Translations under genes and position numbers: made by a program | In this document: piece by piece, positions 445 through 48,441 of the stretch | How the letters are laid out: each line of letters opens with the position of its first letter | How positions within the stretch are numbered: the stretch's first letter is position 1 | Notes under the pieces: model-generated | The model's database searches: none | What the model was told of the DNA's origin: nothing | What the model saw: the letters and a program-made list of their open reading frames with translations, nothing else | Assembly: GCA_017525525.1 (NCBI GenBank) | Contig: JAFXSQ010000037.1 | Coordinates: 1 to 50,702 of the forward strand | Direction of reading: 5' to 3' | Source: Lachnospiraceae bacterium | Lineage (GTDB): Bacteria > Bacillota > Clostridia > Lachnospirales > Lachnospiraceae | Length of the DNA: 50,702 bases

Positions 445-495
445 GAGAAGACAGACGACTGTATACGGGTTAAACGCTGTTTTTAGGAGGATTTG

Positions 496-924
496 ATGGG
501 TAATAACAACGGTGGAATGTTTAGGAAAAAAGCTATGGAACGGATATCTTCTCCGGAGCAGCTCACTGACTATCTTAAGGTGACAACTCCGGGCATCTGG
601 TTTATCCTTACAGCTGTTATTTTACTGCTCGGCGGACTGATTGCCTGGGCAGCAATGGGAAGACTGGAGACGAAGGTAAGCGCAAAAGCACTGGTTAGTG
701 ATGGACAGGCTTTGCTGACTCCGGCCGAAGCGTCGTCTGTACCGCTAAAGGCAGGAATGGAAGTTGTCATAGCAAATAAAAGATATATCACGTCAAACGA
801 AGTTGAGGATGTATATGGAAGAAGTATGTTATCTGCAGAGGTTGCGCTTCCTGACGGTAATTATGATGCGCAGATCGTCACTGAGAGCGTACACCCGATT
901 TCGTTTCTCGTTGAAAGCAGGTGA
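496..924 (+). CDS. Short HlyD-like NHLM secretion protein
   Basis: A 142-residue protein with a cytoplasmic N-terminus, one membrane segment (about residues 36-57, from IWFILTAV to IAWAAMG) and a short extracytoplasmic part. The N-terminal pattern RISSPEQLTDYLKVTTPGIW before the membrane segment is typical of HlyD-family adaptors in NHLM bacteriocin export systems. The usual adaptor is much longer and has a coiled coil and a lipoyl-like domain; neither is visible, so this is a minimal form. AGGAGG at 485-490 supports the ATG at 496 over a TTG at 493. Its stop overlaps the next gene's GTG, implying translational coupling with the transporter. Confidence 0.75.
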   Translation: MGNNNGGMFRKKAMERISSPEQLTDYLKVTTPGIWFILTAVILLLGGLIAWAAMGRLETKVSAKALVSDGQALLTPAEASSVPLKAGMEVVIANKRYITSNEVEDVYGRSMLSAEVALPDGNYDAQIVTESVHPISFLVESR

Positions 925-3110
925 CACGGATGAGCAGGACTAAGGTAAAACCTACACTTAAAAAGGGTGTGGCCAGAGTTCCGGTTGTCATGCAGCTTGA
1001 AGCCTTAGAGTGCGGAGCGGCGTCACTTGCCATGGTTATGGCCTATTACGGTTTATGGATACCTTTAGAGCAGGTACGATTGGACTGCGGGGTATCGCGT
1101 GACGGTTCCACTGCAAAGAACATACGCAAAGCGGCGGAAAACTATGGCTTCAGCGTGAAAGCCTTTCGCATGACTCCCGAGAGATTAAAGAAGGGGGGAG
1201 GCTATCCATGCATTATACATTGGAACATGAACCATTTCGTGGTTTTGAACGGCTTTAAGGGAAAGTATGCTTATATCAATGACCCGGCCAGGGGCTCGGT
1301 AAGGGTTGGCTGGGACGAGTTTGACAGGTCGTTTACGGGGATTGTTCTGTTCCCGACCCCTTCGGAAAAGTTTGAACCAAGCGGAAAGAGAAGGAGTACT
1401 TTTGAATTTGCGAGGAAAAGGCTTGTCGGAGCCGGGGCGGCAGTGATCTTTGTGATGATCACTACAGCCATAACATATCTCTTTGGTATAGCGGGTTCGG
1501 TTACCTCAAGAATATTCATGGATCGTTTGCTTACGGGCAGGAACAGAGACTGGCTTTATCCCTTTGTGAGCATCATGATCCTCCTTGCGATAGTGCAGAT
1601 CATTGTCGAATGGATCAAGACAATCTATTCGCTTAAGATAAACGGAAAGATGGCTGCCATAGGCAGCTCGACTTATATGTGGAAGGTGCTGAGCCTGCCC
1701 ATGGAATTCTTCTCACAGCGTCTTGCAGGAGATATACAGGGGCGACTGGTGCTCAACGCATCCATTGCGGGTACTTTGGTGGATACCTTTGCGCCTTTGG
1801 TGATCAACTCAGTGATGATGATCTTCTACCTTGTGCTTATGCTTAATCAGAGTATAGTGATCACTCTCGTGGGTGTTGGCACAGTGCTTTTAAATGTGTG
1901 GGTGTCAAGGGTGATCTCCCAAAAAAGGATGAACATAACAAGAGTGCAGATGTGCGACCAGGGCAAGCTTGAAGCCACCACTGTAACGGGTATTGAGATG
2001 ATCGAGACGATCAAGGCCAGCGGAGCGGAGGGAGGCTTCTTCCAGAAGTGGGCAGGCTTTCAGGCGTCGGTTAACAGTCAGAACGCAAAATCAGCGCAGA
2101 ATGAGGCTGTCTGGGGTGTGATACCGTCTCTTTTTTCTACTATCGCCAATTACGCCGTTATCATACTCGGGGTTTATCTTTCTATGGAAGGGAAGTTTAC
2201 TTTAGGCGGTATTCTGCTCTTTCAGGGGTTCTTAGGTGCATTTCTTCAGCCGGCCATGACTTTAGTCAGTGCAGGACAGATGCTTCAGGAGATGCGTACC
2301 CAGATGGAACGTGTTGAGGATGTGATGGAATATCCAAACGATATAGGATTGTTACAGGATTCAGGTGGTGAAACGATCGAACTCGAAAAGCTCAGGGGAG
2401 AGTTGGAAATAAAGGATATAAGCTTCGGGTACTCAAGGCTTGATGCACCGTTGATAGAACATTTTTCTCTGAAGCTGAATGTGGGCGACAGGGTTGCCAT
2501 AGTCGGAGCTTCCGGCTGTGGTAAATCAACGATCTCAAAGCTTATCACAGGACTGTATCAGCCATGGAGCGGAGAGATACTTTTTGACGGAAAACCAAGA
2601 AGCGAATATCAAAGAGATGTTATGACAAGCTCTGTCGCGGTTGTGGATCAGGACATAATCCTCTTTGAGGATACCATCGCCAACAATATAAGGATGTGGG
2701 ATGACTCGATCGAAGACTATGAAATTATCATGGCGGCAAAGGACGCGCAACTGCATGATGATATAGTTCAGATGCCGGGAGGATACCGGCACAGGCTTAC
2801 TTCGGGAGGAAGAGACCTCTCCGGAGGGCAGCGCCAGAGAATGGAGATAGCCCGTGTTCTCGCACAGGATCCCATAATCATCATACTTGATGAGGCGACA
2901 AGCGCTCTTGACGCGAAGACTGAGTATGATGTAGTCAACTCGATAAAGGAAAGAGGAATAACCTGTATTGTGATCGCACACAGGCTTTCTACGGTACGTG
3001 ACTGTGACCAGATAATAGTACTTGATAAAGGCAAGGTGATCGAACAGGGGACTCATGACGAGCTTATGGCAAAAAAGGGAGCTTATGCTGAGCTTGTAAC
3101 CAATGAATAG
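921..3110 (+). CDS. C39-peptidase ABC transporter (PCAT, NHLM type)
   Basis: A peptidase-containing ABC exporter of 729 residues. An N-terminal C39 cysteine protease carries Cys31 (EALECGAAS), His105 (NHFVVL) and Asp121 (NDPARG). A six-helix membrane domain follows (about 160-450), then a nucleotide-binding domain with Walker A GASGCGKST (about 529), signature LSGGQRQRME (about 632) and Walker B IIIILDEATSALD. C39 domains cut leader peptides after a double glycine, which matches the GG ends of the two Nif11 leaders at 8970 and 9284. The GTG at 921 overlaps the upstream stop as GTGA; an ATG at 930 is an alternative start. It works with the second ABC protein at 3123. Confidence 0.93.
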   Translation: MTRMSRTKVKPTLKKGVARVPVVMQLEALECGAASLAMVMAYYGLWIPLEQVRLDCGVSRDGSTAKNIRKAAENYGFSVKAFRMTPERLKKGGGYPCIIHWNMNHFVVLNGFKGKYAYINDPARGSVRVGWDEFDRSFTGIVLFPTPSEKFEPSGKRRSTFEFARKRLVGAGAAVIFVMITTAITYLFGIAGSVTSRIFMDRLLTGRNRDWLYPFVSIMILLAIVQIIVEWIKTIYSLKINGKMAAIGSSTYMWKVLSLPMEFFSQRLAGDIQGRLVLNASIAGTLVDTFAPLVINSVMMIFYLVLMLNQSIVITLVGVGTVLLNVWVSRVISQKRMNITRVQMCDQGKLEATTVTGIEMIETIKASGAEGGFFQKWAGFQASVNSQNAKSAQNEAVWGVIPSLFSTIANYAVIILGVYLSMEGKFTLGGILLFQGFLGAFLQPAMTLVSAGQMLQEMRTQMERVEDVMEYPNDIGLLQDSGGETIELEKLRGELEIKDISFGYSRLDAPLIEHFSLKLNVGDRVAIVGASGCGKSTISKLITGLYQPWSGEILFDGKPRSEYQRDVMTSSVAVVDQDIILFEDTIANNIRMWDDSIEDYEIIMAAKDAQLHDDIVQMPGGYRHRLTSGGRDLSGGQRQRMEIARVLAQDPIIIILDEATSALDAKTEYDVVNSIKERGITCIVIAHRLSTVRDCDQIIVLDKGKVIEQGTHDELMAKKGAYAELVTNE

Positions 3111-3122
3111 GGGGTGCCTGGT

Positions 3123-5324
3123 ATGAACTGGATGAGTGACCAGATTACGGAGCGCCGTGAAGCGGATCAGCAGGCTCTCGAAGAAGCATTCCAAAGGATA
3201 GCAGGCGTTGTTCTCGGAGAAAGAATAGCAGAGAAGCTTTCGGATGACAGGATAATAACAAAGCAGACGATAGATGATATATTCAAGTATTATCATTTAA
3301 AGCCTGTTGATATACCGGAATCGATAAAGGATCCAAATGAGCAGATAGACTATTATATCAGACATTACGGATTTCTAAAAAGGACCGTAGAGTTAAACGG
3401 TAAGTGGTACAGTGAAGCGTACGGTCCTATGCTCGGGTATCTGGAAGAAAGCGGCACACCGGTCGCATTGCTTCCCGGAGTCTATAAAGGTTATTATTAT
3501 ATAGACAATTCAACAGGGGAAAAAGTAAAGATCAATTCAAAGACTGCGGCTAAGATAGGTGTGGAAGCGATATGCTTTTACCGTCCGATGCCCCTTAAAA
3601 AGCTTGGGATAATGGATCTTATCCTTTACATGAAACGCTGCGTGAACGCAGAAGACTCGGCGCTGCTTATACTTGCTGCTTTTGCTGTAGCCTGTATAGG
3701 ACTGCTGTTTCCAAGAATCTCGGCGGCGCTTACGGGACCGGTTCTTTCAAGCGGTGAAAAGTCAGCGCTGATCGGAGCTGCCATAAGCGTCTTGTGTATA
3801 TCGCTTTCTTCGCAGGTCATAAACTCATTAAGAGAGCTTTTATCAAAGCGTGTGGAGATGAAGATAAATGTAGGCGTTGATTCGGCCATGATGATGCGCA
3901 TTTTGTCACTTCCTGTAAGCTTCTTCAGGGAGTACAGTCCCGGTGAGCTTAAAAACAGAGCAAGGTCTGTCAGCACTCTTTGCGGCTTGATGAGAGAGAT
4001 GATACTTACGACCGGTCTTACATCGGTTGCATCGCTTGTATACATAACTCAGATAGTTCATTTTGCGCCCGCTTTGGCATTTACTTCGATTATTATAATT
4101 CTGCTGACGGTGTGCTTTTCGATTGTTGTAACCATGATGAACGTTATGATAAGGCGAAAAGTTATGCTTAGGGAAGCAAAGGAGGCGGGGCTGAGCTACT
4201 CACTTATAACGGGGGTACAGAAGATAAAGCTTGCCGGTGCGGAAAAAAGAGTATTTGCCAGATGGCTCAATATCTATGCAGGTGAAGCAGAGCTAAAGTA
4301 CAATCCGCCGCTGTTTTTGAAGATAAGCAGCGTGATAACAACCGGTATAAACCTGTTCTCGACGATCCTGCTGTATTTCCTTGCTGTTCAAAACGGCATA
4401 GATCAGTCTTCATACTTTGCCTTTACGGCAGCGTACGGTTCGGTAATGGGAGCATTTACAGCTCTTTCAGGCATAGCAGGTTCGGCGGCGGATGTGAAGC
4501 CGATATTAGAGATGGCAGAGCCGTTCCTTCAAAGTGTTCCGGAGATATCTACGGACCGTGAGATAGTAACATCGATATCCGGCAGAGTCGAGCTTGACCA
4601 TGTGTCTTTTCGTTACAGCGACAGTACACCTTACATTCTTGATGATGTCTCTCTTATGATAAATCCGGGAGAGTATGTGGCGATAGTCGGAAGAACCGGC
4701 TGCGGAAAATCAACTTTGATCAGGCTGCTTCTTGGCTTTGAGAAGCCGGAGAAGGGTGCAGTGTATTACGACAATAAGGATGTGTCCTCGCTTGACCCGG
4801 GGTCGCTGAGGAAAAACATAGGAACTGTTACTCAAAACGGAGGACTCTTCCAGGGGGATATATACTCCAACATAGTGATCACCGCTCCGTGGCTTACGGT
4901 GGATGATGCATGGGAGGCGGCGGAGAAGGCGGGGATAGCTGATGACATAAGAAGCATGCCGATGGGGATGTACACACTGATCTCGGAAGGGCATGGAGGA
5001 GTGTCGGGCGGTCAGAGGCAGAGGCTCATGATAGCAAGAGCCATAGCCCCAAAACCAAAGCTCCTTATATTCGATGAAGCCACCTCTGCACTTGACAACA
5101 AGACGCAGAAGCAGGTTTCCGATTCGCTTGATTCCATGGGCTGCACCAGGATTGTGGTTGCCCACAGATTATCCACCATACGGCACTGTGACCGCATAGT
5201 GGTTCTCGACGGAGGACATATCATAGAGGACGGAACCTATGAGGAGCTTATAGCGAAACAAGGTTTTTTTGCGGAGCTTGTCGAAAGACAAAGACTTGAC
5301 ACGGTTGAGGGCACAAAGTTATAA
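3123..5324 (+). CDS. NHLM-type ABC transporter without peptidase
   Basis: A 733-residue ABC exporter half. A cytoplasmic N-terminal region of about 170 residues has no C39 catalytic triad. It is followed by a membrane domain (about 180-460) and a nucleotide-binding domain with Walker A GRTGCGKST, signature VSGGQRQRLM and Walker B LLIFDEATSALD. In NHLM clusters this second ABC protein pairs with the peptidase-bearing one. I prefer the ATG at 3123 (GGGGG 9 bases upstream) over the GTG at 3114. The last residues lie about 100 bases before the radical SAM gene, with no terminator visible between them, so co-transcription is likely. Confidence 0.92.
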   Translation: MNWMSDQITERREADQQALEEAFQRIAGVVLGERIAEKLSDDRIITKQTIDDIFKYYHLKPVDIPESIKDPNEQIDYYIRHYGFLKRTVELNGKWYSEAYGPMLGYLEESGTPVALLPGVYKGYYYIDNSTGEKVKINSKTAAKIGVEAICFYRPMPLKKLGIMDLILYMKRCVNAEDSALLILAAFAVACIGLLFPRISAALTGPVLSSGEKSALIGAAISVLCISLSSQVINSLRELLSKRVEMKINVGVDSAMMMRILSLPVSFFREYSPGELKNRARSVSTLCGLMREMILTTGLTSVASLVYITQIVHFAPALAFTSIIIILLTVCFSIVVTMMNVMIRRKVMLREAKEAGLSYSLITGVQKIKLAGAEKRVFARWLNIYAGEAELKYNPPLFLKISSVITTGINLFSTILLYFLAVQNGIDQSSYFAFTAAYGSVMGAFTALSGIAGSAADVKPILEMAEPFLQSVPEISTDREIVTSISGRVELDHVSFRYSDSTPYILDDVSLMINPGEYVAIVGRTGCGKSTLIRLLLGFEKPEKGAVYYDNKDVSSLDPGSLRKNIGTVTQNGGLFQGDIYSNIVITAPWLTVDDAWEAAEKAGIADDIRSMPMGMYTLISEGHGGVSGGQRQRLMIARAIAPKPKLLIFDEATSALDNKTQKQVSDSLDSMGCTRIVVAHRLSTIRHCDRIVVLDGGHIIEDGTYEELIAKQGFFAELVERQRLDTVEGTKL

Positions 5325-5426
5325 TCTGATGTAAGCTTGATCATTTTTCACAGTGATGTACCGGTCGTTTTTTGGACAAGTGACCTATCCGACATGATCA
5401 TCCGGAAAGGAGGAAGAGCGCGTATT

Positions 5427-6743
5427 ATGCTTCATTATTCAAAGTACAATCATCTGGTCAAAATACCCGATGAGGATGCATATGCGCTTATGAACTTCCG
5501 TACTGCAGCATTCGCGCGGCTTACACCTTTGCAAAAGAGCATGTTCGAAGCTGCGCTTGAGCTGGATGAGGATACCGGCATAGTTCAGACACTCCTGCGG
5601 GGAGGCTTCCTTGTATCCTATGATGAGTTGCGGCACATGCGTACACGGGCTTTTCTGGCAGCGGGTTCCGGACGTGTGCTTGGGCTGACGATTTGTCCGA
5701 CCCTTGCCTGCAATTTTGCCTGCCCGTATTGTTTTGAGGAGCAGCGAACCGGGCGTATGAGTGAGGAGACCAGAGAAGCAGTGGTAAGCTTTGCCCGGCG
5801 CTATCTTGAGCATTTTCCGTGTACTGATATCTCTGTTACCTGGTTTGGCGGCGAGCCGTTGCTCTGTCCGGATATCATAGAGGAGCTTTCTCAAAAGCTG
5901 ATGAAGCTGGCAGAGGAAAAAGGATGCGGCTATAACGCCCGCCTGATCACAAATGGCTGGTTTGTTACACCGGAAAATGTGTCCTTGCTGGAACGTGTAA
6001 ATGTCATTGAGATGCAGATTACGCTGGATGGTCCGACCCCCGAGAGCAATGATCCTCTGAGACGGGAGAAGCATGGCGGCTCCAGCTTTCTTCGTATCAT
6101 GGATAACCTGGAGCACCTGCATACGGACAGGATCAAGGTGATGCTCCGCTGCAATGTAAATAAAGATAATGCCGCGCTTTTTCCTGCATTAAAAGAGAAA
6201 ATAATGGTAATGGCAGAAAAAGCAGGATTCTCTGTGCGGGTTTATCCCGCACGCATGGATGGTGACGAGACCTCTTTAAGTCAGACACGGGATCTGACTC
6301 TGAATATGGATGAATTTCATCACCAGGTTGGCGCCTGGGAGGAGATCCCGTATCATCCGGAGTCAGACTGCTTTATCAACCCGATCTTCTGCATGGCGCA
6401 GAATATCAGCGGTTTTGCCATCGACGAACAGGGAGCGCTTTATAAGTGCTGGGAGGCAGTGGGGCGCGATGCCGTATCTTTCGGCAATGTACGAGACTTT
6501 GATGTTCTGAAGGAATCCCGCGGAGACATGAATGCATGGGACGCTTACTTTGAGACACTCTTTCCGGAGAATGACAGAGAGTGCATGGAGTGCAAGGTCT
6601 TTCCTGTCTGCAAGGGAGGATGTCCGCATAAGCGCCTGACCGGAAGACGTACCTGTTTGCCGGTCAAGTACGATCCGGATGGCTTTGTGCTGAAGCGTTA
6701 TGCTCTCTGGAAACAGAAAAACAAAACGGAGAAATCATTATGA
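5427..6743 (+). CDS. Radical SAM/SPASM peptide maturase
   Basis: A 438-residue radical SAM enzyme with CNFACPYC (CxxxCxxC) binding the SAM cluster, after an N-terminal part of about 80 residues resembling the peptide-binding region of SPASM maturases. The C-terminal SPASM domain has the full seven-cysteine pattern: C-x13-G-x4-C (ending LYKC), then CMECKVFPVCKGGC and a last Cys in RRTC, so two auxiliary iron-sulfur clusters are expected. Such enzymes make thioether, C-C or epimer changes in RiPP cores; which one cannot be told. AAAGGAGGA at 5406-5414 supports ATG 5427; a TTG at 5337 is an unlikely start. It overlaps the next gene as ATGA. Arginine CGC/CGT and leucine CTG dominate, unlike the genes before it. 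Confidence 0.92.
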   Translation: MLHYSKYNHLVKIPDEDAYALMNFRTAAFARLTPLQKSMFEAALELDEDTGIVQTLLRGGFLVSYDELRHMRTRAFLAAGSGRVLGLTICPTLACNFACPYCFEEQRTGRMSEETREAVVSFARRYLEHFPCTDISVTWFGGEPLLCPDIIEELSQKLMKLAEEKGCGYNARLITNGWFVTPENVSLLERVNVIEMQITLDGPTPESNDPLRREKHGGSSFLRIMDNLEHLHTDRIKVMLRCNVNKDNAALFPALKEKIMVMAEKAGFSVRVYPARMDGDETSLSQTRDLTLNMDEFHHQVGAWEEIPYHPESDCFINPIFCMAQNISGFAIDEQGALYKCWEAVGRDAVSFGNVRDFDVLKESRGDMNAWDAYFETLFPENDRECMECKVFPVCKGGCPHKRLTGRRTCLPVKYDPDGFVLKRYALWKQKNKTEKSL

Positions 6744-7813
6744 GTCATCTGATGACAGCAAAGATTGAAGAAACAGGACAGGTTCGTGATTTTCGCCGCC
6801 TGTTTACGCGCGCTGCAAAGGACGGTAGGGAGGAAGAGCTGTTTGGAAGCGGCAGTTTGGAAACGGCAGCAGAAGTCATCCGTAGAGTCTCGATCACCGA
6901 TGTCTTGCCGCTGTTCTATCATCTGGAAATGCCTCTGCTTGGAAAACCGCGCATGGATCTCTTTGTCGAGTATGCATGCAGCAGTATCAGGGTGCCTGTA
7001 CAGTTCGCAGAAGGAGATGGATACGGCTGGCTGACCTTCGTTGAGAACTGCCTGCGGGATGAGGCTTTGCGCGAATATATGCTGAATTTTGCCTTTGACC
7101 TTTCGGAGGGGCAGCAACGACCCAACATCTATCTCATTCCTCCGTTTCGTACCGCCACGGTCGACTATATCCCCAATATGCTGGAGAGGCTTAATCACAC
7201 GAACCGGACAGAGTCCCTCATGGCAGCCTTCAGGGCAGCGCCACCGGGGTGGAAGCCTTATTACGCAGGTCTTATGGAAGCACGTCCGGATTCCCCTGTC
7301 CGTTTTGGCTTTCAAGTGTCGCAGGAGCGCATGTGCCAATATGCGGAGGATATATCGCTTTGGAAAAAAGACCTTTCCGTATATGGCAAAGGAGCGTTCG
7401 GTGAGACCATTACAGAGCAGCTTTCCCTGCTCGCCAGGGAAAAAAGACCATGCGACCTGGATTTGAATATTTATCCTGACGGTTCCTTCGGAGACGGCTT
7501 CGGAGTTACGCTCGATCCGGGCATTAAGCGCCTTGATCCGCGCAGACCGGAAGAGATGATGGGGAGTGGGGTGATGAAGACACTGCTTGACCTGGCAGAG
7601 ATGTGGCAGTTGGCAGATGCACGCCGTGAGCTGATCGGCAAAGCCTGCTATGCCGTCCAGCGAGTTATTCGGGACGGCACAGACCGGGTTCGCGTTGCTG
7701 ATGTCTCGAAGCCCTACGCAATCAAGATCCGCTTTAACGCTGATGGAGCGTGCCTGGCGAAGGTATATATGACATTACTCAGCCGTGAATTGGAGAGATG
7801 GACTTATGAATGA
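6740..7813 (+). CDS. Cluster paralog A, possible ABBA-fold prenyltransferase
   Basis: A 357-residue soluble protein, first of four homologs in the cluster. I do not recognise the family from sequence. Shared blocks in order: GKPRMDLFVEY, FAFDLSEG..PNIYLIP, PPGWKPYYAGLM..PVRFGF, DLDLNIYPDGSFGDGFGV, and a last block IKIRFNADG..AKVYM. Each block reads as a beta hairpin, and helices lie between them, giving about five alpha-beta-beta units. That layout, and K-x-Y/K-x-R pairs in late strands, resembles ABBA prenyltransferases; this is inference only. It starts inside the stop of the radical SAM gene (ATGA), so translation is coupled. A scaffold or recognition role is another possibility. Confidence 0.8.
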   Translation: MSHLMTAKIEETGQVRDFRRLFTRAAKDGREEELFGSGSLETAAEVIRRVSITDVLPLFYHLEMPLLGKPRMDLFVEYACSSIRVPVQFAEGDGYGWLTFVENCLRDEALREYMLNFAFDLSEGQQRPNIYLIPPFRTATVDYIPNMLERLNHTNRTESLMAAFRAAPPGWKPYYAGLMEARPDSPVRFGFQVSQERMCQYAEDISLWKKDLSVYGKGAFGETITEQLSLLAREKRPCDLDLNIYPDGSFGDGFGVTLDPGIKRLDPRRPEEMMGSGVMKTLLDLAEMWQLADARRELIGKACYAVQRVIRDGTDRVRVADVSKPYAIKIRFNADGACLAKVYMTLLSRELERWTYE

Positions 7814-8885
7814 GGAACTTCAAAAGGCAGCAGGGATGACAGAGGATTTTTGCCGCCTCTGCCAAAGAGCAGCGGATGACGGCAGGGGCGAGGCTTTGTT
7901 TGGCAGGGATGCGGAAGCTTATGGGGCAGCCGCAGCAGAGGCGGTAGGAAGAAGTTCTCTCGCGCATACGGACAGGGTGCATTACTACTTCGAGTTCCCG
8001 CTCACAGGCAGATCCGGTTTGGATATCATGGTGCAGTACAGATGCGGCTCCCTGCTGCCGGGCGCTTCTTTCCTGAAGGGAGACGGGTTTGGTTATCAGC
8101 AGTTTTTTGGCAGGCTGGCGGAGGAACAATCCTTCGAGGATTATCTGGTGTTTTTTGCTTTCGACCTGTCAGAGGGAAGGAAACAGCCAAACATCTACCT
8201 GATGCCAAAACTGGCAGGTGCGAACTGCGATTATGTTCCCGGGATGCTGCAGCTGCTGGGAGAAGAGAAGCGCACGGAAAAGACCATGCAGGCCTTTGAC
8301 GCAGCACCGCCCGGGTGGCAGCCTTATTACGCCGGACTGATGAAGACGCGTGAGGGCGCTCCCATCCGACTGGGTTTTGTGACCAAAACAGGGCTTGTCA
8401 ACCGTTATGCTGCCGACAGTGCAATGATCGTACGTGATTTTGGCGTTTATTATCCCGGGGGCGTTCCCGATGTCGTTTGCGAGCAGCTTATGCATCTGGC
8501 TAAGACTACGGAGAAGGATGCGTGCTGGGATATACAGCTCAACCTGTTTGACGACGGCAGTTTTGATGATCATCTGGGGATTACGCCGGATATGGGATTC
8601 CGTTACAACGATGTACGGCATGCTGAGAGAACCCTTGAGAGTGATCGTGTCATCAAGATCATGGAACTGCTGGAAAGCTGGAACTGCGCAGATGACAGGT
8701 GGCATCTGATGGGTGAGGCGTGCTGCGGCATACAGCGCAGGGCAGGCTATAAGACGGACACCGGCACGGTCGTGCACAGACGGGTAGCGGATGCGATACA
8801 GCTGAATGCCGTCAAGGTACGTCTGAAACGCACCGGCGCCTATCTCGCCAAAGGGTATCTTATCGCCACCACCTGGGACCTGTGA
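7806..8885 (+). CDS. Cluster paralog B, possible ABBA-fold prenyltransferase
   Basis: A 359-residue homolog of paralog A, with matching blocks GRSGLDIMVQY, FAFDLSEG..PNIYLMP, PPGWQPYYAGLM..PIRLGF, WDIQLNLFDDGSFDDHLGI and VKVRLKRTG..AKGYL. The helix before the last hairpin (SWNCADDRWHLMGEACCGIQ) also matches its relatives. The ATG at 7806 overlaps the end of paralog A by 8 bases and has GGAGAG upstream; an in-frame ATG at 7785 would add seven residues. It is followed by an 84-base gap and then the first precursor gene. Function is unknown; an isoprenoid transferase acting on the precursor's Trp or Tyr residues is a hypothesis. Confidence 0.8.
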   Translation: MNEELQKAAGMTEDFCRLCQRAADDGRGEALFGRDAEAYGAAAAEAVGRSSLAHTDRVHYYFEFPLTGRSGLDIMVQYRCGSLLPGASFLKGDGFGYQQFFGRLAEEQSFEDYLVFFAFDLSEGRKQPNIYLMPKLAGANCDYVPGMLQLLGEEKRTEKTMQAFDAAPPGWQPYYAGLMKTREGAPIRLGFVTKTGLVNRYAADSAMIVRDFGVYYPGGVPDVVCEQLMHLAKTTEKDACWDIQLNLFDDGSFDDHLGITPDMGFRYNDVRHAERTLESDRVIKIMELLESWNCADDRWHLMGEACCGIQRRAGYKTDTGTVVHRRVADAIQLNAVKVRLKRTGAYLAKGYLIATTWDL

Positions 8886-8969
8886 TATGCGTTCTACCGG
8901 GCTCTTGTTCGCTCCCCGACAAATCAGCCCGCTAAAATAAAAACGAATTAATGAAAAGGAGGTTATCCG

Positions 8970-9200
8970 ATGGGAAACAATTTTGACCCGAAGCAGCTCT
9001 CAAGTGAGCTGCTCCAGAAGATTCATGCGTGCAAGACGCCGGAAGAGCTGGTTGCTTTAGCAAAGGAAAACAACATTGAGCTGACGGCTGAGAAGGCAGC
9101 AGCGTATTTTGCAGAGCTGAATGAGCTTGAAGTCGAATTATCCGACGAGCAGTTGAACAAAGTAGCAGGCGGACGCGATTGCGGCTGGTACTACGACTAG
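8970..9200 (+). CDS. Nif11-leader RiPP precursor 1
   Basis: A 76-residue precursor. The leader has the Nif11-like pattern: an N-terminal helix, the KTPEELVALAKENNIELT segment, and the end VELSDEQLNKVAGG. Cleavage after GG leaves the eight-residue core RDCGWYYD, with one Cys, one Trp and two adjacent Tyr. AAAAGGAGG 6-14 bases before the ATG is among the strongest ribosome sites in the cluster, as expected for a product made in excess over its enzymes. The likely modifying enzyme is the radical SAM protein at 5427 and the likely exporter the C39 transporter at 921. A paralog lies 83 bases downstream. Confidence 0.92.
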   Translation: MGNNFDPKQLSSELLQKIHACKTPEELVALAKENNIELTAEKAAAYFAELNELEVELSDEQLNKVAGGRDCGWYYD

Positions 9201-9214
9201 GGAACTGTCGTGAA

Positions 9215-9248
9215 AAGACTTGCACATGAGGCGTGTCTTCTTGTGCAA
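9215..9248 (+). other. Alternative hairpins between the precursor genes
   Basis: TTGCACA (9220-9226) can pair with TGTGCAA (9242-9248), while AAGAC (9215-9219) can pair with GTCTT (9235-9239). The two stems overlap, so only one can form at a time. This could set the ratio of the two precursors, but the stems are short and there is no T-run. Confidence 0.3.
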
Positions 9249-9283
9249 CGGCAATTGTCAAAAGATGAAAGGAGTATTATCAC

Positions 9284-9550
9284 ATGAGCAATATTTTTGA
9301 ATCCATGTCAGAAGAACAGCATAAGGAATTTATCAAAAAAGTAATGGACTGCAAGACCACCGAGGACGTGACCGCTCTGGCAAAGGAGTACGATAAGGAA
9401 ATTTCCGCGGAACAGGCTGAGAAGATTCTGTCAGAAATCGACAATCTCGAAGTAGAGCTGACTGATGAACAGCTGGATAAGGCAGCTGGCGGCTTCTCCT
9501 GTCATAATGGGCAGGGATTGTGTCTGACCGATGCTGATGAATGGTTCTGA
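9284..9550 (+). CDS. Nif11-leader RiPP precursor 2
   Basis: An 88-residue Nif11-leader precursor related to the one at 8970. The leader contains KTTEDVTALAKEYDKEIS and ends VELTDEQLDKAAGG. The predicted core is FSCHNGQGLCLTDADEWF, 18 residues with two Cys seven apart and one Trp near the C-terminus. AAAGGAG about 11 bases before the ATG is a good ribosome site. The core has almost nothing in common with the first core except Cys and Trp, so the leader rather than the core is probably what the shared enzymes recognise. The gene's last 20 bases overlap the next ORF. Confidence 0.92.
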   Translation: MSNIFESMSEEQHKEFIKKVMDCKTTEDVTALAKEYDKEISAEQAEKILSEIDNLEVELTDEQLDKAAGGFSCHNGQGLCLTDADEWF

Positions 9551-10586
9551 CTCTGTTATTCCGGCAGATTTCTCCCGTCTTTTCATAAGGGCGGCGGCAG
9601 ATGGGCGGTGTGAATCGCTGTTTGGTGCGGATACGCTTAAAAAGGCGGCGGAAGCTGTGCATCGGGGCTGTATCTGTGACGCGGGTAAAGCAGGCTTTTA
9701 CTTTGAGCTGCCCTTTACGGGGAGACCGCGCATGGATCTGCTCATGGAGTATAAGTGTGCCGCGCTGAAATCACCGGTGAAATTCGCAGATGGGTACGGA
9801 TATGGCTTTCAATCTTTTTTTGATGCCTGTGCAAACGACCCGTCACTTTCGGATTATGCCTGTGGATTTTCGTTTGACCTCTCAGAGCCATCGGAGATTC
9901 CGGGCATCTATCTTCTGCCGGACCTTGAACATCCAAACGCAGACTATGTACCAAGGATGCTTTCATGGCTCGGAGGGGAGGAGCGGACAGCGCGGGTGAT
10001 GGATGCCTTTGCGTCGGCACCCGCCGCATGGAAGCCTTACTATGTGGGATATATGAAAGGCAGACCCGGCGCACCGGTCAGACTTGGATTCTTTATACCG
10101 CAGGACAGCCAGGAGCGCTACTTTCTTATGCCGGAGCTTCTGATGGATGACCTGAACGGGTACAGAGCCTTCCCCATGACGAGAGAAGAGCACGAGAAGC
10201 TGCTGTTCCTTGCCTCTCAGGCCAGGATCTGGGATTTGCAGTTTGACCTGTATCCTGACGGCTTCTTTTCGGATGACCTGGGTGTTTCTCTGGGGCTTGG
10301 ATTTGGCGCATGTAATCCGCGAAATACTTCTGACTGTCTGTCAGGCAGCGCGGCTGAGACTGTCATGCTGGAGCTTGAGAGCTGGGGGATGGCCGACGCG
10401 CGCTGGCGACAGATGTTTGAAGCCTGCTATGCTGTGAAGTGCGTTGTGCAGGAGAATGGCTGCAGAAAACTTACAGCTGATGTGCTGCGTCCCAATACCG
10501 TCAAGGTGCGATTCAGGCATGGGAAGCCATTTGTTGCCAAAGGGTATCTTTTTGCACGTTCATATACCCTTGAGGAATATCTATGA
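9531..10586 (+). CDS. Cluster paralog C, possible ABBA-fold prenyltransferase
   Basis: A 351-residue member of the four-paralog family, with blocks GRPRMDLLMEYK, FSFDLSEP..PGIYLLP, AAWKPYYVGYM..PVRLGF, WDLQFDLYPDGFFSDDLGV and VKVRFRHG..AKGYL. Two ATGs (9531 and 9537) lie inside the end of precursor 2, in another frame; a GGGCAGGGA stretch about 15 bases upstream could serve as ribosome site. The overlap suggests translation is coupled to the precursor. It is closer to A and B than to D by eye. Function is unknown; see the cluster finding for the prenyltransferase hypothesis. Confidence 0.8.
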   Translation: MLMNGSDSVIPADFSRLFIRAAADGRCESLFGADTLKKAAEAVHRGCICDAGKAGFYFELPFTGRPRMDLLMEYKCAALKSPVKFADGYGYGFQSFFDACANDPSLSDYACGFSFDLSEPSEIPGIYLLPDLEHPNADYVPRMLSWLGGEERTARVMDAFASAPAAWKPYYVGYMKGRPGAPVRLGFFIPQDSQERYFLMPELLMDDLNGYRAFPMTREEHEKLLFLASQARIWDLQFDLYPDGFFSDDLGVSLGLGFGACNPRNTSDCLSGSAAETVMLELESWGMADARWRQMFEACYAVKCVVQENGCRKLTADVLRPNTVKVRFRHGKPFVAKGYLFARSYTLEEYL

Positions 10587-10601
10587 AAAACGGAGACGAA
10601 G

Positions 10602-11606
10602 ATGTTCAGACCTGAAGAAATATTTGACGAGCTGCTGAGACGCGCGGGAAAAGACGGCGCGGACGAGGTCTTGTTAGGAAATACAGTACAGGAAAAGAAA
10701 GTCATCCATAAAAAACTCTGCAGACGCGGTTTCAGCCTGTTGTTCCTGGAGGTGCCTCTTTCTGGCAGGGCGGGCTTTGATCTGCATATTGTGCAGGATG
10801 CGGAGAATATAAAAAAACAGATTCCCTATGAACGTGATCTGTATGACGGCTATGGGGAGTTGTTGTCATGGTATGCCGGGGAGTCTTCCTGCGGCGACGG
10901 GCTGGATGTGGTGTATGATCTTCGGGAAAGCCTCGCTGCGCCGCCGATGGTATATCTCAAGATGTCAGACGACACACCGAATTTTTCCGGCTTTTTTTGT
11001 AAAGCCGGTGACGCTGAGAGTGCGTCAAGGTATGAGCGAAAAGTAAAGCAGCTTCCGGACGGATGGGTTCCCTGGTACACGGGCGTACATACAGGGAGAC
11101 CGGGAAAACCGCTCCGCATCGGCTGCGCCCTGCACAGCCGGGCGAAGATGCGCTATACCAAAGATATGAACCTTCTGGATCGTGACCTCCGAAACCTGGG
11201 CTTTCCGGCACCGCTCTCATCCGTGGCATGCGGCAGATTGGCTGAACTCTTTTCCTTTCCGTATCCGGTCGATGTGCAGCTGGATGTGATGGAGGACGGC
11301 AGCCTTGGATCCATGCTGGGGATCAGCTTGTGCACAGGAAATATCGGTGTCAGAGAGATGACCGATTCCCTGAATGAAGGATCCATGCGTGAAGTTATGG
11401 AACTTTTGAAACGCTGGAATATAGCAGATGATCGTTGGAAAAAGCTGGCAGCTTCGCTCTTTCAGGTGTCAGCAGTACTGCGCTCAGGAGATGGCGATAG
11501 ACGACGCTTTGTCCTGTCAGGCAATATTGGCTTTATTAAAGCGCGCTTTAAAGATGGCGAGGCTGAGCATGATGCCAAGGCTTATATCATGCTGCGGGCA
11601 TTCTGA
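10602..11606 (+). CDS. Cluster paralog D, divergent family member
   Basis: A 334-residue, most divergent member of the family. It keeps GRAGFDL, DGWVPWYTGVHTGRPGKPLRIG, VDVQLDVMEDGSLGSMLGI, WNIADDRW and the last hairpin IKARFKDG..AKAYI, but the second block is changed: DLRESL..PMVYLKM replaces DLSEG..PNIYLMP. It may have a different substrate or be a non-catalytic partner. GGAGACG lies 7-13 bases upstream of the ATG. It is the last gene of the plus-strand cluster and runs towards the isomerase gene, ending 31 bases from it. Confidence 0.78.
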   Translation: MFRPEEIFDELLRRAGKDGADEVLLGNTVQEKKVIHKKLCRRGFSLLFLEVPLSGRAGFDLHIVQDAENIKKQIPYERDLYDGYGELLSWYAGESSCGDGLDVVYDLRESLAAPPMVYLKMSDDTPNFSGFFCKAGDAESASRYERKVKQLPDGWVPWYTGVHTGRPGKPLRIGCALHSRAKMRYTKDMNLLDRDLRNLGFPAPLSSVACGRLAELFSFPYPVDVQLDVMEDGSLGSMLGISLCTGNIGVREMTDSLNEGSMREVMELLKRWNIADDRWKKLAASLFQVSAVLRSGDGDRRRFVLSGNIGFIKARFKDGEAEHDAKAYIMLRAF

Positions 11607-11637
11607 TTGACAATTTATGAGCTTTGGGCTGTGTGCT

Positions 11638-12156
11638 TTAGATCCTTCCCGCCTCAGCAATACCAAGAGCGGTAAAGAACCACGGTGCGTACTTCCCAGG
11701 CTCCAAAATCATGTTTTTCTTCAGTTCCTCAAGGTGAACATATCGAAGCTCAGCAATCTCCTCTGGATTCGGAGAAAGGGTTCCCGAGTATTCTCCGACA
11801 AAGACATGATCCACTTCGAACTCTGTCAGTCCGTTTGGAAATACAGCACGGTACACAAAACAGCCGGCTTCATGTAAAGACACTCCACTGATTCCGCACT
11901 CATTCATCAATCGCTGCTGTGCCGCATCCGGCAGAGACTGTCCGGGGTGCGGATGAGAACAGCAGGTGTTTGCCCACAGTCCCCCGCAGTGGTATTTTTC
12001 TAAAGCGCGTTGTTGGATCAGAAGACGGTTTTCATGGAACAAAAACACAGAGAAAGCCCTGTGAAGGAGACCTTTCCGATGAACGTCCATCTTTTCTCCA
12101 TATCCAGTCTCACGATCGTCCAAATCCACCAGGATCAGATCATTTTCTTTATTCAT
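11638..12156 (-). CDS. idi: Isopentenyl-diphosphate delta-isomerase, type I
   Basis: A 172-residue Nudix-fold enzyme that interconverts IPP and DMAPP. The signature WANTCCSHPHPGQ contains the catalytic Cys and metal-binding His residues. Further marks are the LHRAFSVFLF strand, a Nudix-like region RLMNECGIS, and EVDHVFVGEY with a metal ligand Glu. The start at 12156 has AAAGGATG upstream; the reading frame is open further up without a better start. The gene lies convergent to the RiPP cluster with 31 bases between the stops. Organisms that use the MEP pathway make both IPP and DMAPP and often lack this enzyme, so its place here suggests a local demand for DMAPP. That link is inference. Confidence 0.92.
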   Translation of the reverse strand: MNKENDLILVDLDDRETGYGEKMDVHRKGLLHRAFSVFLFHENRLLIQQRALEKYHCGGLWANTCCSHPHPGQSLPDAAQQRLMNECGISGVSLHEAGCFVYRAVFPNGLTEFEVDHVFVGEYSGTLSPNPEEIAELRYVHLEELKKNMILEPGKYAPWFFTALGIAEAGRI

Positions 12157-12334
12157 ACTGCACATCCTTTTCTTTCTAACGCAGCCAAAAGCACTGACGA
12201 ATCGGCTGTTTTCAGGGATCAATAGCTACAGCTGTTTATTATACATGAAGTGAAAGCGAATGTCTATCGTAACTTACTTTTGAGATAATGTGACTAAAGG
12301 GAAAACCGGTTTCAAAACATGCTTTATGAAAGCC

Positions 12335-12363: not shown

Positions 12364-12514
12364 TACGATGTAGCGAATACGGATAGGAGCCGTCACGAAC
12401 CCCCTGTAGTTTATCTTTACAGGAGAGAAGAAGCTTTAATAATCGAATTATTCGCGGAAGACCGATGGTTTCATAACCGCATTGGTGTCTTTCGCAGAAG
12501 GACGGGGTATAAAA

Positions 12515-14311
12515 GTGAAAAAGAAAAAAAGTCTTCTGGTTACAGTAGGATTGGTTATGCTGTTGATGTTTGTCACGGCTGCGCTTCTGAATGCAGCACA
12601 GATAAACAGGAATTATTCTTCGATTTTTATGGACAAGCTGCAGGATGATACGAAGAGCATGACGGATTATGTAAGGGACGAGCTGTGTGAGTACAAAGCA
12701 CTTCCATGGCTTTTTTCCTACTGGGAGGAAAACTATGCCGGTATGGATATACCGGTCAATGGGCTTGAAGACGAAAACTGGATAGAAAGACATCAGAATT
12801 ATTATTACTACAGGGTGAAGACCGTGACCGAAGCTGAGGCTTTGAGTATGTCGGAAGCCGAGCAAAAGGAATTTGCGGAGACATGTTATATGAAGATGGC
12901 TGTTTTTTTTGATCACCTGAAACAGAAGTTCAATATGGTCGGACTACACTGTTCAAGCTACAAGGGGAACAACGAATCCTTTGCTCTTTTCAATGGAGTC
13001 GACAAAGCTTCGGAGGGTGAAAGATATGCGCTCGGATCGATGTGGCCGTTTCATCCGGAGCTTCATCCGGTCGCCGACAAAATCGTTCGGACAGGAATGG
13101 ATATAAGTGAAGTAGAGCATGTGACCTCGACTACGGACGGAATAGAGTATATGTTTGTCTATACTCCGGTGATATATGATGGCGAGGTGCTGGCACTTAT
13201 CTGTGAGACCAGACACTGGACAGAGGTTAAAGCGGATATTACCTCAAATGCCAGAAAGGTTGAGATAGTCAATTCCATTGTGCTGCTGTTTATTATTTCC
13301 GTTATAATGACGCTCATCTACATAGTTGTGATAAGACCGCTCTTTCGGGTTCAGGGAATCGTCAGGAGATATAAAACGGATAAAGAGAGTTCCTCCGCAG
13401 GTTCAGACCTTAAGGTCTTGGCAGAGAAGGAGAATGAGATAGGAATGCTGGCAGGTGATGTGGCGGCAATGATCGAGTCGATAGACGGATATATCGATGA
13501 AGTGAAGAGTGCGGCAATCGAGAAGGAGAGGATCGGTGCCGAGCTTGATATGGCGTCTGGTATTCAAAGTGCCAGTCTGCCGAGTAAGTTTCCGGCATTC
13601 CCTGCAAGGAGAGAGTTTGACATCTATGCTGTGATGAATCCCGCCAAGGAGATAGGCGGTGATTTCTTCGATTTTTTCATGACGGACGAAGATCACCTGG
13701 TGATGGTAGTTGCCGATGTTTCGGGAAAAGGTGTTCCCGCAGCGCTGTTCATGATGGTATCACAGACGGTTATCAGGTCCATAGCCGGGTCAATGAAAAG
13801 TCCTAAGGACATACTTATAAGTGCAAATCAGACGCTCTCGATCAGCAACTCGGAATGCATGTTTGTCACAGTCTGGCTTGGAATACTGGATGTGAAAACC
13901 GGGAAGCTTGTCTATGCGGACGCCGGGCATGAAAAGCCTGCGGTGTTTCATGATGGAAGCTGGAGTCTGATAGAGAAGGCTTCCCGGAGCGTGGCATTAG
14001 GTATGCTTTCACCTGAGGATTACAATAAGCTGGCGGAGAAGTATCATTTTACTGATCGGGAAATCATGATGAAACCGGGAGATGTGCTGTTTCAGTATAC
14101 CGACGGTGTAACTGAAGCCAATGACAAAAGTGAGAACCTCTTTGGTGAAAAAAGACTGCTTCAGGCGCTTGTTGCTTCGGAGGACAATACTCCAGAGGTT
14201 CTGCTGAAGCATGTCCGAAGCCGGATAGATGAGTTTGCCCAGGACACACCTCAGTTTGATGATATAACCATGCTCGCAATACAGTTTAAAGGTGCGGGGG
14301 AAGGTTATTGA
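12515..14311 (+). CDS. Membrane sensor SpoIIE-type PP2C phosphatase
   Basis: A 598-residue sensor phosphatase: an N-terminal membrane helix (LLVTVGLVMLLMFVTAALL), an extracellular domain of about 220 residues, a second helix (VLLFIISVIMTLIYIVVI), a HAMP-like linker, a short coiled region and a SpoIIE-type PP2C domain. The phosphatase motifs are GGDFFD, ADVSGKGVPAALFM, DAGHEKP, YTDGVTEA and DDITM, with the metal-binding Asp residues present. Such enzymes dephosphorylate STAS proteins. The GTG at 12515 has GAAGGACGGGG 10-20 bases upstream; a TTG at 12482 is an alternative. Its STAS partner could be the protein at 145, but this is inference. Confidence 0.9.
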   Translation: MKKKKSLLVTVGLVMLLMFVTAALLNAAQINRNYSSIFMDKLQDDTKSMTDYVRDELCEYKALPWLFSYWEENYAGMDIPVNGLEDENWIERHQNYYYYRVKTVTEAEALSMSEAEQKEFAETCYMKMAVFFDHLKQKFNMVGLHCSSYKGNNESFALFNGVDKASEGERYALGSMWPFHPELHPVADKIVRTGMDISEVEHVTSTTDGIEYMFVYTPVIYDGEVLALICETRHWTEVKADITSNARKVEIVNSIVLLFIISVIMTLIYIVVIRPLFRVQGIVRRYKTDKESSSAGSDLKVLAEKENEIGMLAGDVAAMIESIDGYIDEVKSAAIEKERIGAELDMASGIQSASLPSKFPAFPARREFDIYAVMNPAKEIGGDFFDFFMTDEDHLVMVVADVSGKGVPAALFMMVSQTVIRSIAGSMKSPKDILISANQTLSISNSECMFVTVWLGILDVKTGKLVYADAGHEKPAVFHDGSWSLIEKASRSVALGMLSPEDYNKLAEKYHFTDREIMMKPGDVLFQYTDGVTEANDKSENLFGEKRLLQALVASEDNTPEVLLKHVRSRIDEFAQDTPQFDDITMLAIQFKGAGEGY

Positions 14312-46293: not shown

Positions 46294-48441
46294 ATGCCTG
46301 AGAAATTGAATTTAAAAAGAAAAAAGGCTTTATATGGTTTTGTGACTTATTTTCTTGCATTTGTCTTGTTTGTTGGCGGCTTTGGTAGCATCAGGGCTAA
46401 GGCTGATGAAACCGAGGGCGCTGTTTCTGTACGCTCTTTTTCGGAAGATGGCGCGGGGCAGACAACCGGAGCAGATGAGAGCGCGGGAGGGCAGGCAGAA
46501 GATGAGTACGAGCTGGGCACGGCGAAGTTCGCATTTGCTGCCGAGGAGCTTGGAAATCAGATAAAGATAGCGACAACTCCTCTCGAAGAGGTAAACGGCT
46601 ACTTCGACTGGAGAGGATATGAAGGAAGGTACATTTACGACAGGCTTGATGCCGATGAAAAAGAGCTTTATGATGAGCTTGTAGCAAGCTCACAGAAGCT
46701 GATAACGACTACGGTTGCCTGTAAGCAGAGTAAGGTAAGCGTATCCGGTGTGACAAGGCAGGTATATTATCCTGAATTATGCTATTCCTCAAAGCTTACT
46801 TTAGAGAGAGCCAAGGATGTAGCGTGGATGTTTATCTGGCAGAATCCGCAGTACTATTTCTACAACAATAATTTATATTTCGGTCAGAACAATACGACCG
46901 GAAAGGTTTATGTTGCGGTCGGTGTTTACAGTGATTTTGCGGATGGTGAGGCAAGAGCCGAGGCAACCGTGAAGTTCGCTGAGGCGCTAAAGGAGAAGGA
47001 AGAATACCTCGAGGGACGTCTTCTTGATGTGAGTGATACCTACAAAAGAGAAGTGCTTATACATGATGCGGTATGTGAGTGGCTTGATTACAGGTCGGTA
47101 TCCTATGATCAGAGCGCTTACAGCGCATTGTGCGGCAATCCGGCGGGCGCGGCTATATGCGCAGGCTATACAAAGCTATTCGATATGCTGCTTACGAGAT
47201 TTAACATTCCGGTAATAGGCGTGTTCAGCTATGATCATTGCTGGAGCATAGTGAATATCTACGGTGACTGGTATAATGTAGATGTTACATGGGATGATGA
47301 GAAGGTTACAAAGGATTACTTAAACAGGAACGATGCCTTTTTCAAGACACTCAGCTCACATACGGCAAGAAGCTATTACAACGGCGCTCTTCCGGAGTGT
47401 CCGTATGACTACAGCACTACGAATACCAAGAGTGAGGAGATGACCGGCGATGCCGCAGAAGGTATCACCGTAAGCTATAGGGTTCAGCTTCAGAGTTTCG
47501 GATGGCTGCCCAAGGCGCAGAACGGTCAGACAGGCGGAGTTGTCAAATCCGGCAAGAAGCTTCAGGGCTATAGTATAGAGGTAAACGGCGCGGAGAAGCT
47601 CGGTATCCGTTACAGGTCGTATATAACCGATTACGGCTGGGAAGAATGGATTAATGACGGTGAGAAATCCGGACAGAGCTTAAATAAGAGAATTGAAGCG
47701 CTGATGGTAGAGCTGACCGGCAAGAATGCAGTAAACTATGATGTGTACTACAGGGTTTATGTCCAGAAGAACGGCTGGATGGGCTGGGCTAAGAACGGCG
47801 CAAAGGCAGGTACCATAGGACAGAATCTGAGAATAGAAGCGATACAGATAATTGTTGTTCCGAAGGGCGAGCATCCGATGGAAGGAACAATCGGAGTTCC
47901 CTATATGGAGCTGGCAGGCACGGATGATGAGCTTGATGATGTGGCTAATTCCGCAGCATCGGTTTACTACAGAGCTTATGTTCAGGGAGTCGGATATCAG
48001 AGATATGTGGGCGACGGTTCTATAGGAGGACTTCCCGGAGCGGGCAAGAGAATTGAGGGACTTAATATCAAGGTTAATAATGCTCAGCTTGGACTTAGCG
48101 GTGGCATTAAGTACAGAACTTATGTACAGACACACGGCTGGCTCAAGTGGGTAACAAGCAGCGGTAACACCGTGGCTTACAGCGGAACCAAGGGCGAAGC
48201 AAAGAGGATAGAAGCAATACAGATTAACCTGACCGGTGCTCTGGCTTCGGAATATGACGTATACTACAGGGTAAATGTTCAGGATTACGGCTGGCTCGAC
48301 TGGACCAAGAACGGCGCGACAGCCGGAACAAGCGGACTCGCAAAGCGCATGGAAGGCATACAGATTACGATTGTTCCTAAGGGAACTCCGGCGCCGGGTT
48401 CGACGGCAAAAAGCTTTATAAAGAAAACCCTCTCTCCATAA
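46294..48441 (+). CDS. Secreted transglutaminase-like protein with ChW repeats
   Basis: A 715-residue secreted protein: a signal peptide (residues 1-35, GFVTYFLAFVLFVGGFG), a Gly/Glu-rich linker, a transglutaminase-like cysteine protease domain (about 80-370) with Cys in AAICAGYTKL, His in FSYDHCWSIV and Asp in NVDVTWDD, then at least five ChW repeats (YRVQLQSFGWLPKAQNG, YRSYITDYGWEEWINDG, YRVYVQKNGWMGWAKNG and so on). ChW repeats are typical of clostridial cell-surface proteins. It may process peptides or bind the wall; no cell-wall anchor is seen. Single-gene unit with its own terminator. Confidence 0.9.
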   Translation: MPEKLNLKRKKALYGFVTYFLAFVLFVGGFGSIRAKADETEGAVSVRSFSEDGAGQTTGADESAGGQAEDEYELGTAKFAFAAEELGNQIKIATTPLEEVNGYFDWRGYEGRYIYDRLDADEKELYDELVASSQKLITTTVACKQSKVSVSGVTRQVYYPELCYSSKLTLERAKDVAWMFIWQNPQYYFYNNNLYFGQNNTTGKVYVAVGVYSDFADGEARAEATVKFAEALKEKEEYLEGRLLDVSDTYKREVLIHDAVCEWLDYRSVSYDQSAYSALCGNPAGAAICAGYTKLFDMLLTRFNIPVIGVFSYDHCWSIVNIYGDWYNVDVTWDDEKVTKDYLNRNDAFFKTLSSHTARSYYNGALPECPYDYSTTNTKSEEMTGDAAEGITVSYRVQLQSFGWLPKAQNGQTGGVVKSGKKLQGYSIEVNGAEKLGIRYRSYITDYGWEEWINDGEKSGQSLNKRIEALMVELTGKNAVNYDVYYRVYVQKNGWMGWAKNGAKAGTIGQNLRIEAIQIIVVPKGEHPMEGTIGVPYMELAGTDDELDDVANSAASVYYRAYVQGVGYQRYVGDGSIGGLPGAGKRIEGLNIKVNNAQLGLSGGIKYRTYVQTHGWLKWVTSSGNTVAYSGTKGEAKRIEAIQINLTGALASEYDVYYRVNVQDYGWLDWTKNGATAGTSGLAKRMEGIQITIVPKGTPAPGSTAKSFIKKTLSP

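Follow-up and report, generated by a model that had tools for sequence, protein, structure and literature searches.

What four paralogous proteins of an unfamiliar family do among peptide-modifying genes, with an enzyme of isoprenoid metabolism beside them, is the question raised by the locus described here. It lies in a 50,702-nt stretch of DNA from a Lachnospiraceae bacterium (contig JAFXSQ010000037.1), referred to as the window. The cluster probably serves the biosynthesis of prenylated, radical-SAM-modified peptides with Nif11 leaders, and the four paralogs, named PT1 to PT4, would be its prenyltransferases of the ABBA (alpha-beta-beta-alpha) type. The product, the prenyl donor and the modified residue given below are those that we infer.

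Ten consecutive genes occupy positions 493–11606 of the plus strand, in the order short HlyD protein, subunits 1 and 2 of a C39/NHLM exporter, radical SAM/SPASM enzyme, PT1, PT2, two Nif11 precursors, PT3 and PT4. Six of the nine intergenic gaps measure −29 to 15 bases; the wider ones are 102 bases 5′ of the radical SAM gene (start at 5427), 84 bases between PT2 and precursor 1 and 83 bases from precursor 1 to precursor 2. The gene of a type I isopentenyl-diphosphate isomerase (idi, 11638–12222) follows on the minus strand and is convergent with PT4, the two 3′ ends being 31 bases apart. A sequence-only reading of this DNA had listed a radical SAM/SPASM enzyme, four paralogs, two Nif11 precursors with GG, a C39 exporter and a type I isopentenyl diphosphate (IPP) isomerase, and all of these parts were found. 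Its assignment of the isomerase to type I also stood (NF002995, 160 bits, cut-off 127; TIGR02150, 122.8 bits, cut-off 105.8; TCCSHP stretch), but the start that it gave, 12156, is an internal ATG of the open reading frame (ORF).

PT1 (6740–7813), PT2 (7785–8885), PT3 (9531–10586) and PT4 (10602–11606) are all encoded on the plus strand. PT1 is 40, 40 and 26% identical to PT2, PT3 and PT4, respectively; PT2 has the same invariant residues, and PT3 was placed by sequence comparison, alignment and tree. The paralogs are not chance ORFs, because 44 homologues align with 13 invariant columns and the gene order occurs again in locus L002 and partly in L003. According to structure prediction, PT1 and PT4 are ABBA barrels, in which five beta-hairpins form the barrel and helices surround it, so that the comparison with ABBA enzymes proposed in the sequence-only reading came out in its favour; both are probable prenyltransferases. 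The fold matches listed for the models include aromatic, phenazine and free-histidine prenyltransferases. The residues E50, D60, R166, R172, K313, K326 and Y328 (PT4 numbering) are invariant in the 44 homologues and may include the Lys, Arg and Tyr that bind diphosphate in ABBA barrels; by alignment and models the invariant charged and Tyr residues sit in barrel strands. A rough secondary-structure estimate from the alignment, now superseded by the models, gave an NphB-like order of helices and strands.

Sequence comparison did not connect the paralogs to known enzymes. No prenyltransferase model of NCBIfam or Pfam matched any of the 44 members at E values up to 10 (3 and 7 families matched); we take these libraries to contain a model of the F-family cyanobactin prenyltransferases. 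PDB sequence searches with the paralogs yielded no relatives, and hhalign of the paralogs against NphB alone yielded nothing. Structures of the cyanobactin F family were not among the best 50 fold matches listed, which excludes nothing. Two other identities were put aside. An immunity protein was suggested only by Imm51 at E 0.15 in Pfam. ComQ-like enzymes have a different fold; the title of a section on trans-isoprenyl diphosphate synthase (trans-IDS)-like enzymes in PMC13290415 points the same way.

The same ten genes and idi were found in L002 (Clostridiales metagenome-assembled genome, MAG, RUG10947), where PT1 to PT4 are 84–88% identical to those of the window. The L003 contig (Eggerthellaceae MAG) begins inside PT1 and carries PT2 to PT4, a fifth paralog, both precursors, three more Nif11 ORFs, a radical SAM gene that shares 36% identity with that of the window and an idi that is cut off. 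Two paralogs each are encoded in L004 (Succiniclasticum) and L005 (Coriobacteriaceae MAG). By their record titles, L003 and L004 come from ruminant guts. The genome of L005, G793, belongs to an actinobacterial family of 138 genomes that includes the L003 genome and is called the G793 family here. The paralog family was detected in 23 of these 138 genomes, with up to 11 matches per genome, as against 4 of 397 genomes of the window's own family (the window's genome counted) and 1 of 398 across its phylum, which is the window's own. Since the paralogs are common in the G793 family and rare in the window's family and phylum, the former is their likely home, and the window cluster may have arrived by transfer. 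The G+C content is 0.52 over 6740–12222 and 0.47 beyond 12400. Paralog genes in pieces or as remnants were seen in L093, L207, L214, L215, L220, L221 and L222; some lineages appear to be losing the PT system.

The distribution of the isomerase gene follows that of the paralogs. Within the G793 family, type I idi over the cut-off was found in 23 of the 138 genomes, that is in 21 of the 23 with PT genes and in 2 of the 115 without (Fisher p = 1.8e-20); kinship was uncorrected, so the real weight of this p value is smaller. In the window's own family idi exceeded the TIGR02150 cut-off in one of 100 genomes, the window's. Of the PT-bearing genomes outside the G793 family, the window's and G790 have it over the cut-off; the total over all PT-bearing genomes examined is 23 of 29. 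The gene is convergent with PT4 in the window, co-directional after PT4 in L002 and placed after the radical SAM gene in L003. Between the window (11638–12222) and L002 (14990–15610) idi is inverted while the remaining gene order is kept. It lies near a PT gene and a Nif11 ORF in L088, is convergent with PT in L136, and in L132 the order is idi, one ORF, Nif11, PT. In L144, PT, radical SAM, HlyD, ABC1 and ABC2 share one strand and are followed by idi and Nif11 on the opposite one. In L139 idi follows HlyD, ABC1 and ABC2, as it does in L138, where a STAS gene intervenes and a radical SAM gene comes next. Such variable positions argue against one frozen neighbourhood. At most of the 47 PT loci of the G793 family idi is not nearby; it was within 8 kb in five cases. 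The sequence-only reading had staked its proposal on the isomerase recurring in homologous clusters, and it does. IspH was matched in 11 of 12 PT-bearing genomes tested, over the cut-off in 10, including the window's own; dimethylallyl diphosphate (DMAPP) would thus be available even without idi, whose role appears to be one of supply.

The putative substrates are encoded between PT2 and PT3 on the plus strand. Precursor 1 (8970–9200) scored above the cut-offs of TIGR03798 (36.7 bits, cut-off 32.3) and PF07862 (26.1 bits, cut-off 23.8); precursor 2 (9284–9550) scored below both (23.1 and 18.6 bits) and can be aligned with precursor 1 and its relatives. The GG is followed by 8 residues in precursor 1 (RDCGWYYD) and by 18 in precursor 2 (FSCHNGQGLCLTDADEWF). 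PT-bearing loci supplied 28 precursors, 16 of which went into a Nif11 model; among the other 12, at least three have no Trp (L079, L088, L080 16981). The model matched 34 of the 138 genomes of the G793 family, namely all 23 with PT genes and 11 of the 115 without (Fisher p = 3.1e-18); in one of these 11, G916, the contig that bears the precursor also gave two short PT-like matches. The 95 matching ORFs gave 69 distinct cores after removal of duplicates and of five ORFs without a clear GG site, a few from genomes without PT among them. Trp is present in 67 of these cores, Cys in 66 and both in 65, and Trp falls within the first three residues after GG in 51. With pieces counted, Nif11 matches outnumber PT matches in 20 of the 23 PT-bearing genomes, in keeping with enzymes that act in trans; G791, a 4.5-Mb draft, has 30 Nif11 and 8 paralog matches.

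Because the Nif11 model contains core columns, the count was repeated with a leader-only model, itself partly made from the same precursors. Around PT genes, 15 of 18 cores contained Trp, 12 of them within the first three residues; around idi only three precursors were found, all with Trp and none with it within the first three. The control, genomes of the window's family without PT, gave 18 and 3 of 35, respectively. It came from 30 loci returned, with three PT-bearing genomes removed, and used a slightly looser rule for the core start; some of its weak matches may not be precursors. The trend towards Trp near GG in the predicted cores at PT loci is clear, with a small control. The idea of Trp as the single invariant core residue was dropped, since it held only for the 16 aligned precursors chosen from 28. 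Some Nif11-leader ORFs have no short core and end in paired, zinc-ribbon-like CxxC motifs (L114; L116, 2377–2622; L162, 3244–3453; L080, 5560–5769; L182).

The tree of the 44 members consists of two clades (support 98/93), A with PT1, PT2 and PT3 and B with PT4. Neighbouring pairs were counted within 3 kb, with pieces of 150 or fewer profile positions excluded. There were 23. Ten belong to the four-paralog clusters of the window, L002 and L003 and are of type AA, AB or BB. Twelve of the remaining 13 consist of one A and one B gene, six being 9–39 bases apart and two sharing a B gene; the thirteenth is a single broken A gene counted twice. Both clades were present in 19 of 23 genomes of the G793 family for which loci were fetched, with B only in G824 and G841 and A only in G911 and G914. 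Since several of the pairs are orthologues of one another and many paralogs have no neighbour of their own family, we regard the A+B pairing as old and conserved, not as having arisen independently many times. Such pairing points to a step that takes two enzymes, or to a heteromer. A wider proposal, that A and B enzymes cooperate in pairs, as heteromeric or two-step ABBA prenyltransferases, and serve Trp/Cys-rich Nif11 precursors across the genome in trans, with a dedicated isomerase, is speculative and, as a whole, rather doubtful. Within that proposal, the three A and one B enzymes of the window may each serve one core residue (W73, Y74 and Y75 of precursor 1; W87 of precursor 2). In two genomes of the window's family an unpaired clade B paralog precedes what is apparently the same 423-amino-acid protein, apparently an amidohydrolase (L013, 10191–11462; L015, 4602–5873).

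The radical SAM/SPASM peptide maturase gene (5337–6743, plus strand) has three possible starts, 5337, 5394 and 5427, the last being that of the sequence-only reading. Its product has CxxxCxxC at residue 125 and Cys residues at 352, 371, 416, 419, 425, 429 and 440, in what we take to be the seven-Cys SPASM spacing, and scored 66.3 bits with PF04055 (cut-off 29.5) and 57.1 with the SPASM model TIGR04085 (cut-off 27). With both Cys motifs present it belongs to the radical SAM/SPASM maturases. No specific maturase cut-off was reached among the 25 models listed, the best being TIGR04334 (201.9 of 600 bits). The nearest solved PDB chain is 5wgg, presumably the maturase CteB. A relative lies within 8 kb of 6 of the 47 PT loci, as judged by BLAST, which is blind to distant radical SAM enzymes. 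Of 95 neighbours no more than 3.5 kb away (95 of 102 candidates; window, L002 and L003 excluded), three carried PF04055. The notion of a standard partner, as the sequence-only reading would have it, was dropped on these counts; the enzyme is an occasional, not a fixed, partner.

Exporter subunit 1 (921–3110, plus strand) carries a C39 leader peptidase (TIGR03796, 886.2 bits, cut-off 853.3; PF03412, 116.3 bits), and subunit 2 (3114–5324, plus strand) scored slightly below its cut-off (TIGR03797, 694.9 bits, cut-off 709.4). A leader ending in GG together with an NHLM transporter marks the cluster as one for Nif11-leader ribosomally synthesised and post-translationally modified peptides (RiPPs) with NHLM export. 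Of the 47 PT loci, 11 had an NHLM exporter no further than 8 kb away; like the counts of radical SAM relatives and Nif11 ORFs at these loci, this is a lower bound, since many contigs are short. The short HlyD/NHLM secretion protein (493–924, plus strand) matched TIGR03794 with 29.3 bits over profile positions 1–55 of 421, far below the cut-off of 156.2; its 143 amino acids are a third of the usual model, a homologue of the same length occurs in L002, and short forms recur in relatives. STAS and/or SpoIIE-phosphatase genes were seen repeatedly beside such clusters (window, 112–444 and 12482–14311; L014, 13603–16102; L085, SpoIIE at 2 and STAS at 1747; L134; L138; L152); the peptide system may be under partner-switching control. 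Elsewhere in the window, positions 46294–48441 encode a probably surface-bound 715-amino-acid protein with clostridial hydrophobic W (ChW) repeats.

Prenyl transfer, leader binding, the crosslink type and the order of steps are parts of a pathway that we infer as follows. Two precursors would be made, each with GG at the end of its Nif11 leader, and the radical SAM/SPASM enzyme would introduce an oxidative crosslink into the core, probably a Cys thioether, which is a guess. By analogy with MppC, PT1 to PT4 would bind the leader and move a prenyl group, probably C5 from DMAPP, onto the core, most likely onto Trp (W73 of precursor 1, W87 of precursor 2) and possibly onto Tyr (Y74, Y75). The isomerase would raise the supply of DMAPP, IspH of the methylerythritol phosphate pathway being present too, and the C39/NHLM exporter would cleave at GG and export the product. 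MppC of Moorena producens is a leader-dependent ABBA prenyltransferase of a Nif11-leader lanthipeptide; it requires the complete Nif11-like leader, works preferentially on a core that is already macrocyclised and attaches a geranyl group to C5 of one Trp (PMC12715784). This need and this preference make leader dependence and a crosslink-first order the default expectation for the window cluster.

The enzymes may be ABBA prenyltransferases with another donor, such as geranyl diphosphate (GPP) or farnesyl diphosphate, or with Tyr, Cys, His or Asp rather than Trp as target, while the isomerase only balances the IPP/DMAPP pool. We consider this a less probable but serious alternative. MppC, the nearest functional analogue, prefers GPP (PMC12715784), so the donor here may not be DMAPP; the listed fold matches span several kinds of acceptor, and the cores contain Tyr and Cys besides Trp. 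Trp near GG is, however, the commonest core feature besides Cys and exceeds the control, and no prenyl-chain synthase was among the 25 of 108 neighbour Pfam families listed, whereas the DMAPP-making enzyme recurs. It is unlikely that the paralogs have kept the ABBA fold and lost prenyl transfer, to become leader-binding scaffolds or to perform other core chemistry. Every sequence profile tried left them unrecognised and some PT-bearing genomes lack idi over the cut-off, yet the invariant charged and Tyr residues sit in barrel strands and co-occurrence with the DMAPP-making enzyme is tight. Least likely, to the point of being improbable, is an isomerase of ordinary isoprenoid metabolism that stands beside the cluster by chance. 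The convergent idi of the window does not share an operon with PT4, G895 and G908 have idi without PT, and only five of the 47 PT loci have it nearby; against this, idi is co-directional after PT4 in L002 and after the radical SAM gene in L003, stands beside exporter genes in L138, L139 and L144, and is rare in the window's family; IspH is present anyway.

Several observations count against prenylation by the paralogs. An ABBA fold, here a predicted one, by itself shows no function, and profile comparison with an NphB-family alignment gave a probability of 2.1%, which leaves at most a very distant relationship to known ABBA enzymes. The co-occurrence of idi and PT is partly shared descent. Among PT-bearing genomes of the G793 family, G911 and G912 lack idi over the cut-off (G912 with an 89-bit partial match), as do G052, G079, G331 (68% complete) and G792 elsewhere, and G050 of the window's family has a 103-bit near-miss without PT. 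G895 and G908 have idi and Nif11 with no PT match, and similar Trp cores occur there and in G916. At L127 (G895) and L145 (G908) a type I isomerase and Trp-core Nif11 precursors stand with the PT family unmatched; either PT was lost there or another prenyltransferase family not yet seen is at work. The choice of 16 of 28 precursors makes the Nif11 model results lean to PT-bearing genomes and Trp cores. A Nif11 ORF lies within 3 kb at only 17 of the 47 PT loci, and with PF07862 as with TIGR03798 the window's genome yields only precursor 1, so that the excess of Nif11 over PT matches seen in most PT-bearing genomes is absent there.

If prenylation by the paralogs is true, ABBA peptide prenylation extends from cyanobacterial cases to anaerobe lineages, with a family that no sequence library tried names, and radical SAM crosslinking and prenylation are joined on one leader. 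Sets of enzymes and precursors such as that of G791 would be a ready panel for work on leader-directed lipidation and for the production of lipidated peptides. Nif11 RiPPs, NHLM export, SPASM maturation and ABBA peptide prenylation, including that of a Nif11-leader peptide, are already known. A literature search that covered few subscription journals and no preprints returned no report of this ABBA family or of its combination with a radical SAM enzyme, and none of a dedicated isomerase, of A+B pairs or of comparable systems in these hosts.

Among known systems, NHLM/Nif11 RiPP clusters with SPASM radical SAM enzymes share the leader family, exporter and maturase type of the window, and we know of no prenyltransferase or isomerase in them. 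Bacterial prenyltransferases of indole and tryptophan whose structures are solved, CymD, PriB, IptA and 5-/6-DMATS, have 6–13% sequence identity to the paralogs over all listed rows; these enzymes presumably act on free tryptophan or small indoles. The cyanobactin F family (PagF, KgpF, LimF) resembles the paralogs in its alpha-beta-beta-alpha barrel, and its peptide substrates and Trp, Tyr or His targets, as given in PMC13290415, PMC11002830 and PMC12715784, resemble those proposed here. F enzymes, however, modify macrocycles that two proteases have made, once the leader is gone (PMC12715784), whereas the only protease domains among the ten cluster genes scanned with Pfam are of the C39 kind, and no prenyltransferase model matched the 44 members of the window's family. 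MppC, which is compared here by its description, qualifies the statement of the sequence-only reading that no described system is like this one, being an ABBA enzyme that acts on Trp of a Nif11-leader peptide (PMC12715784). It shares with the window system the ABBA type, the Nif11-like leader of the precursor and, as proposed here, core Trp as the modified residue. It differs in coming from a cyanobacterium, in having a lanthionine synthetase, and not a radical SAM enzyme, named as its macrocyclising enzyme, in being the one prenyltransferase described and in preferring GPP.

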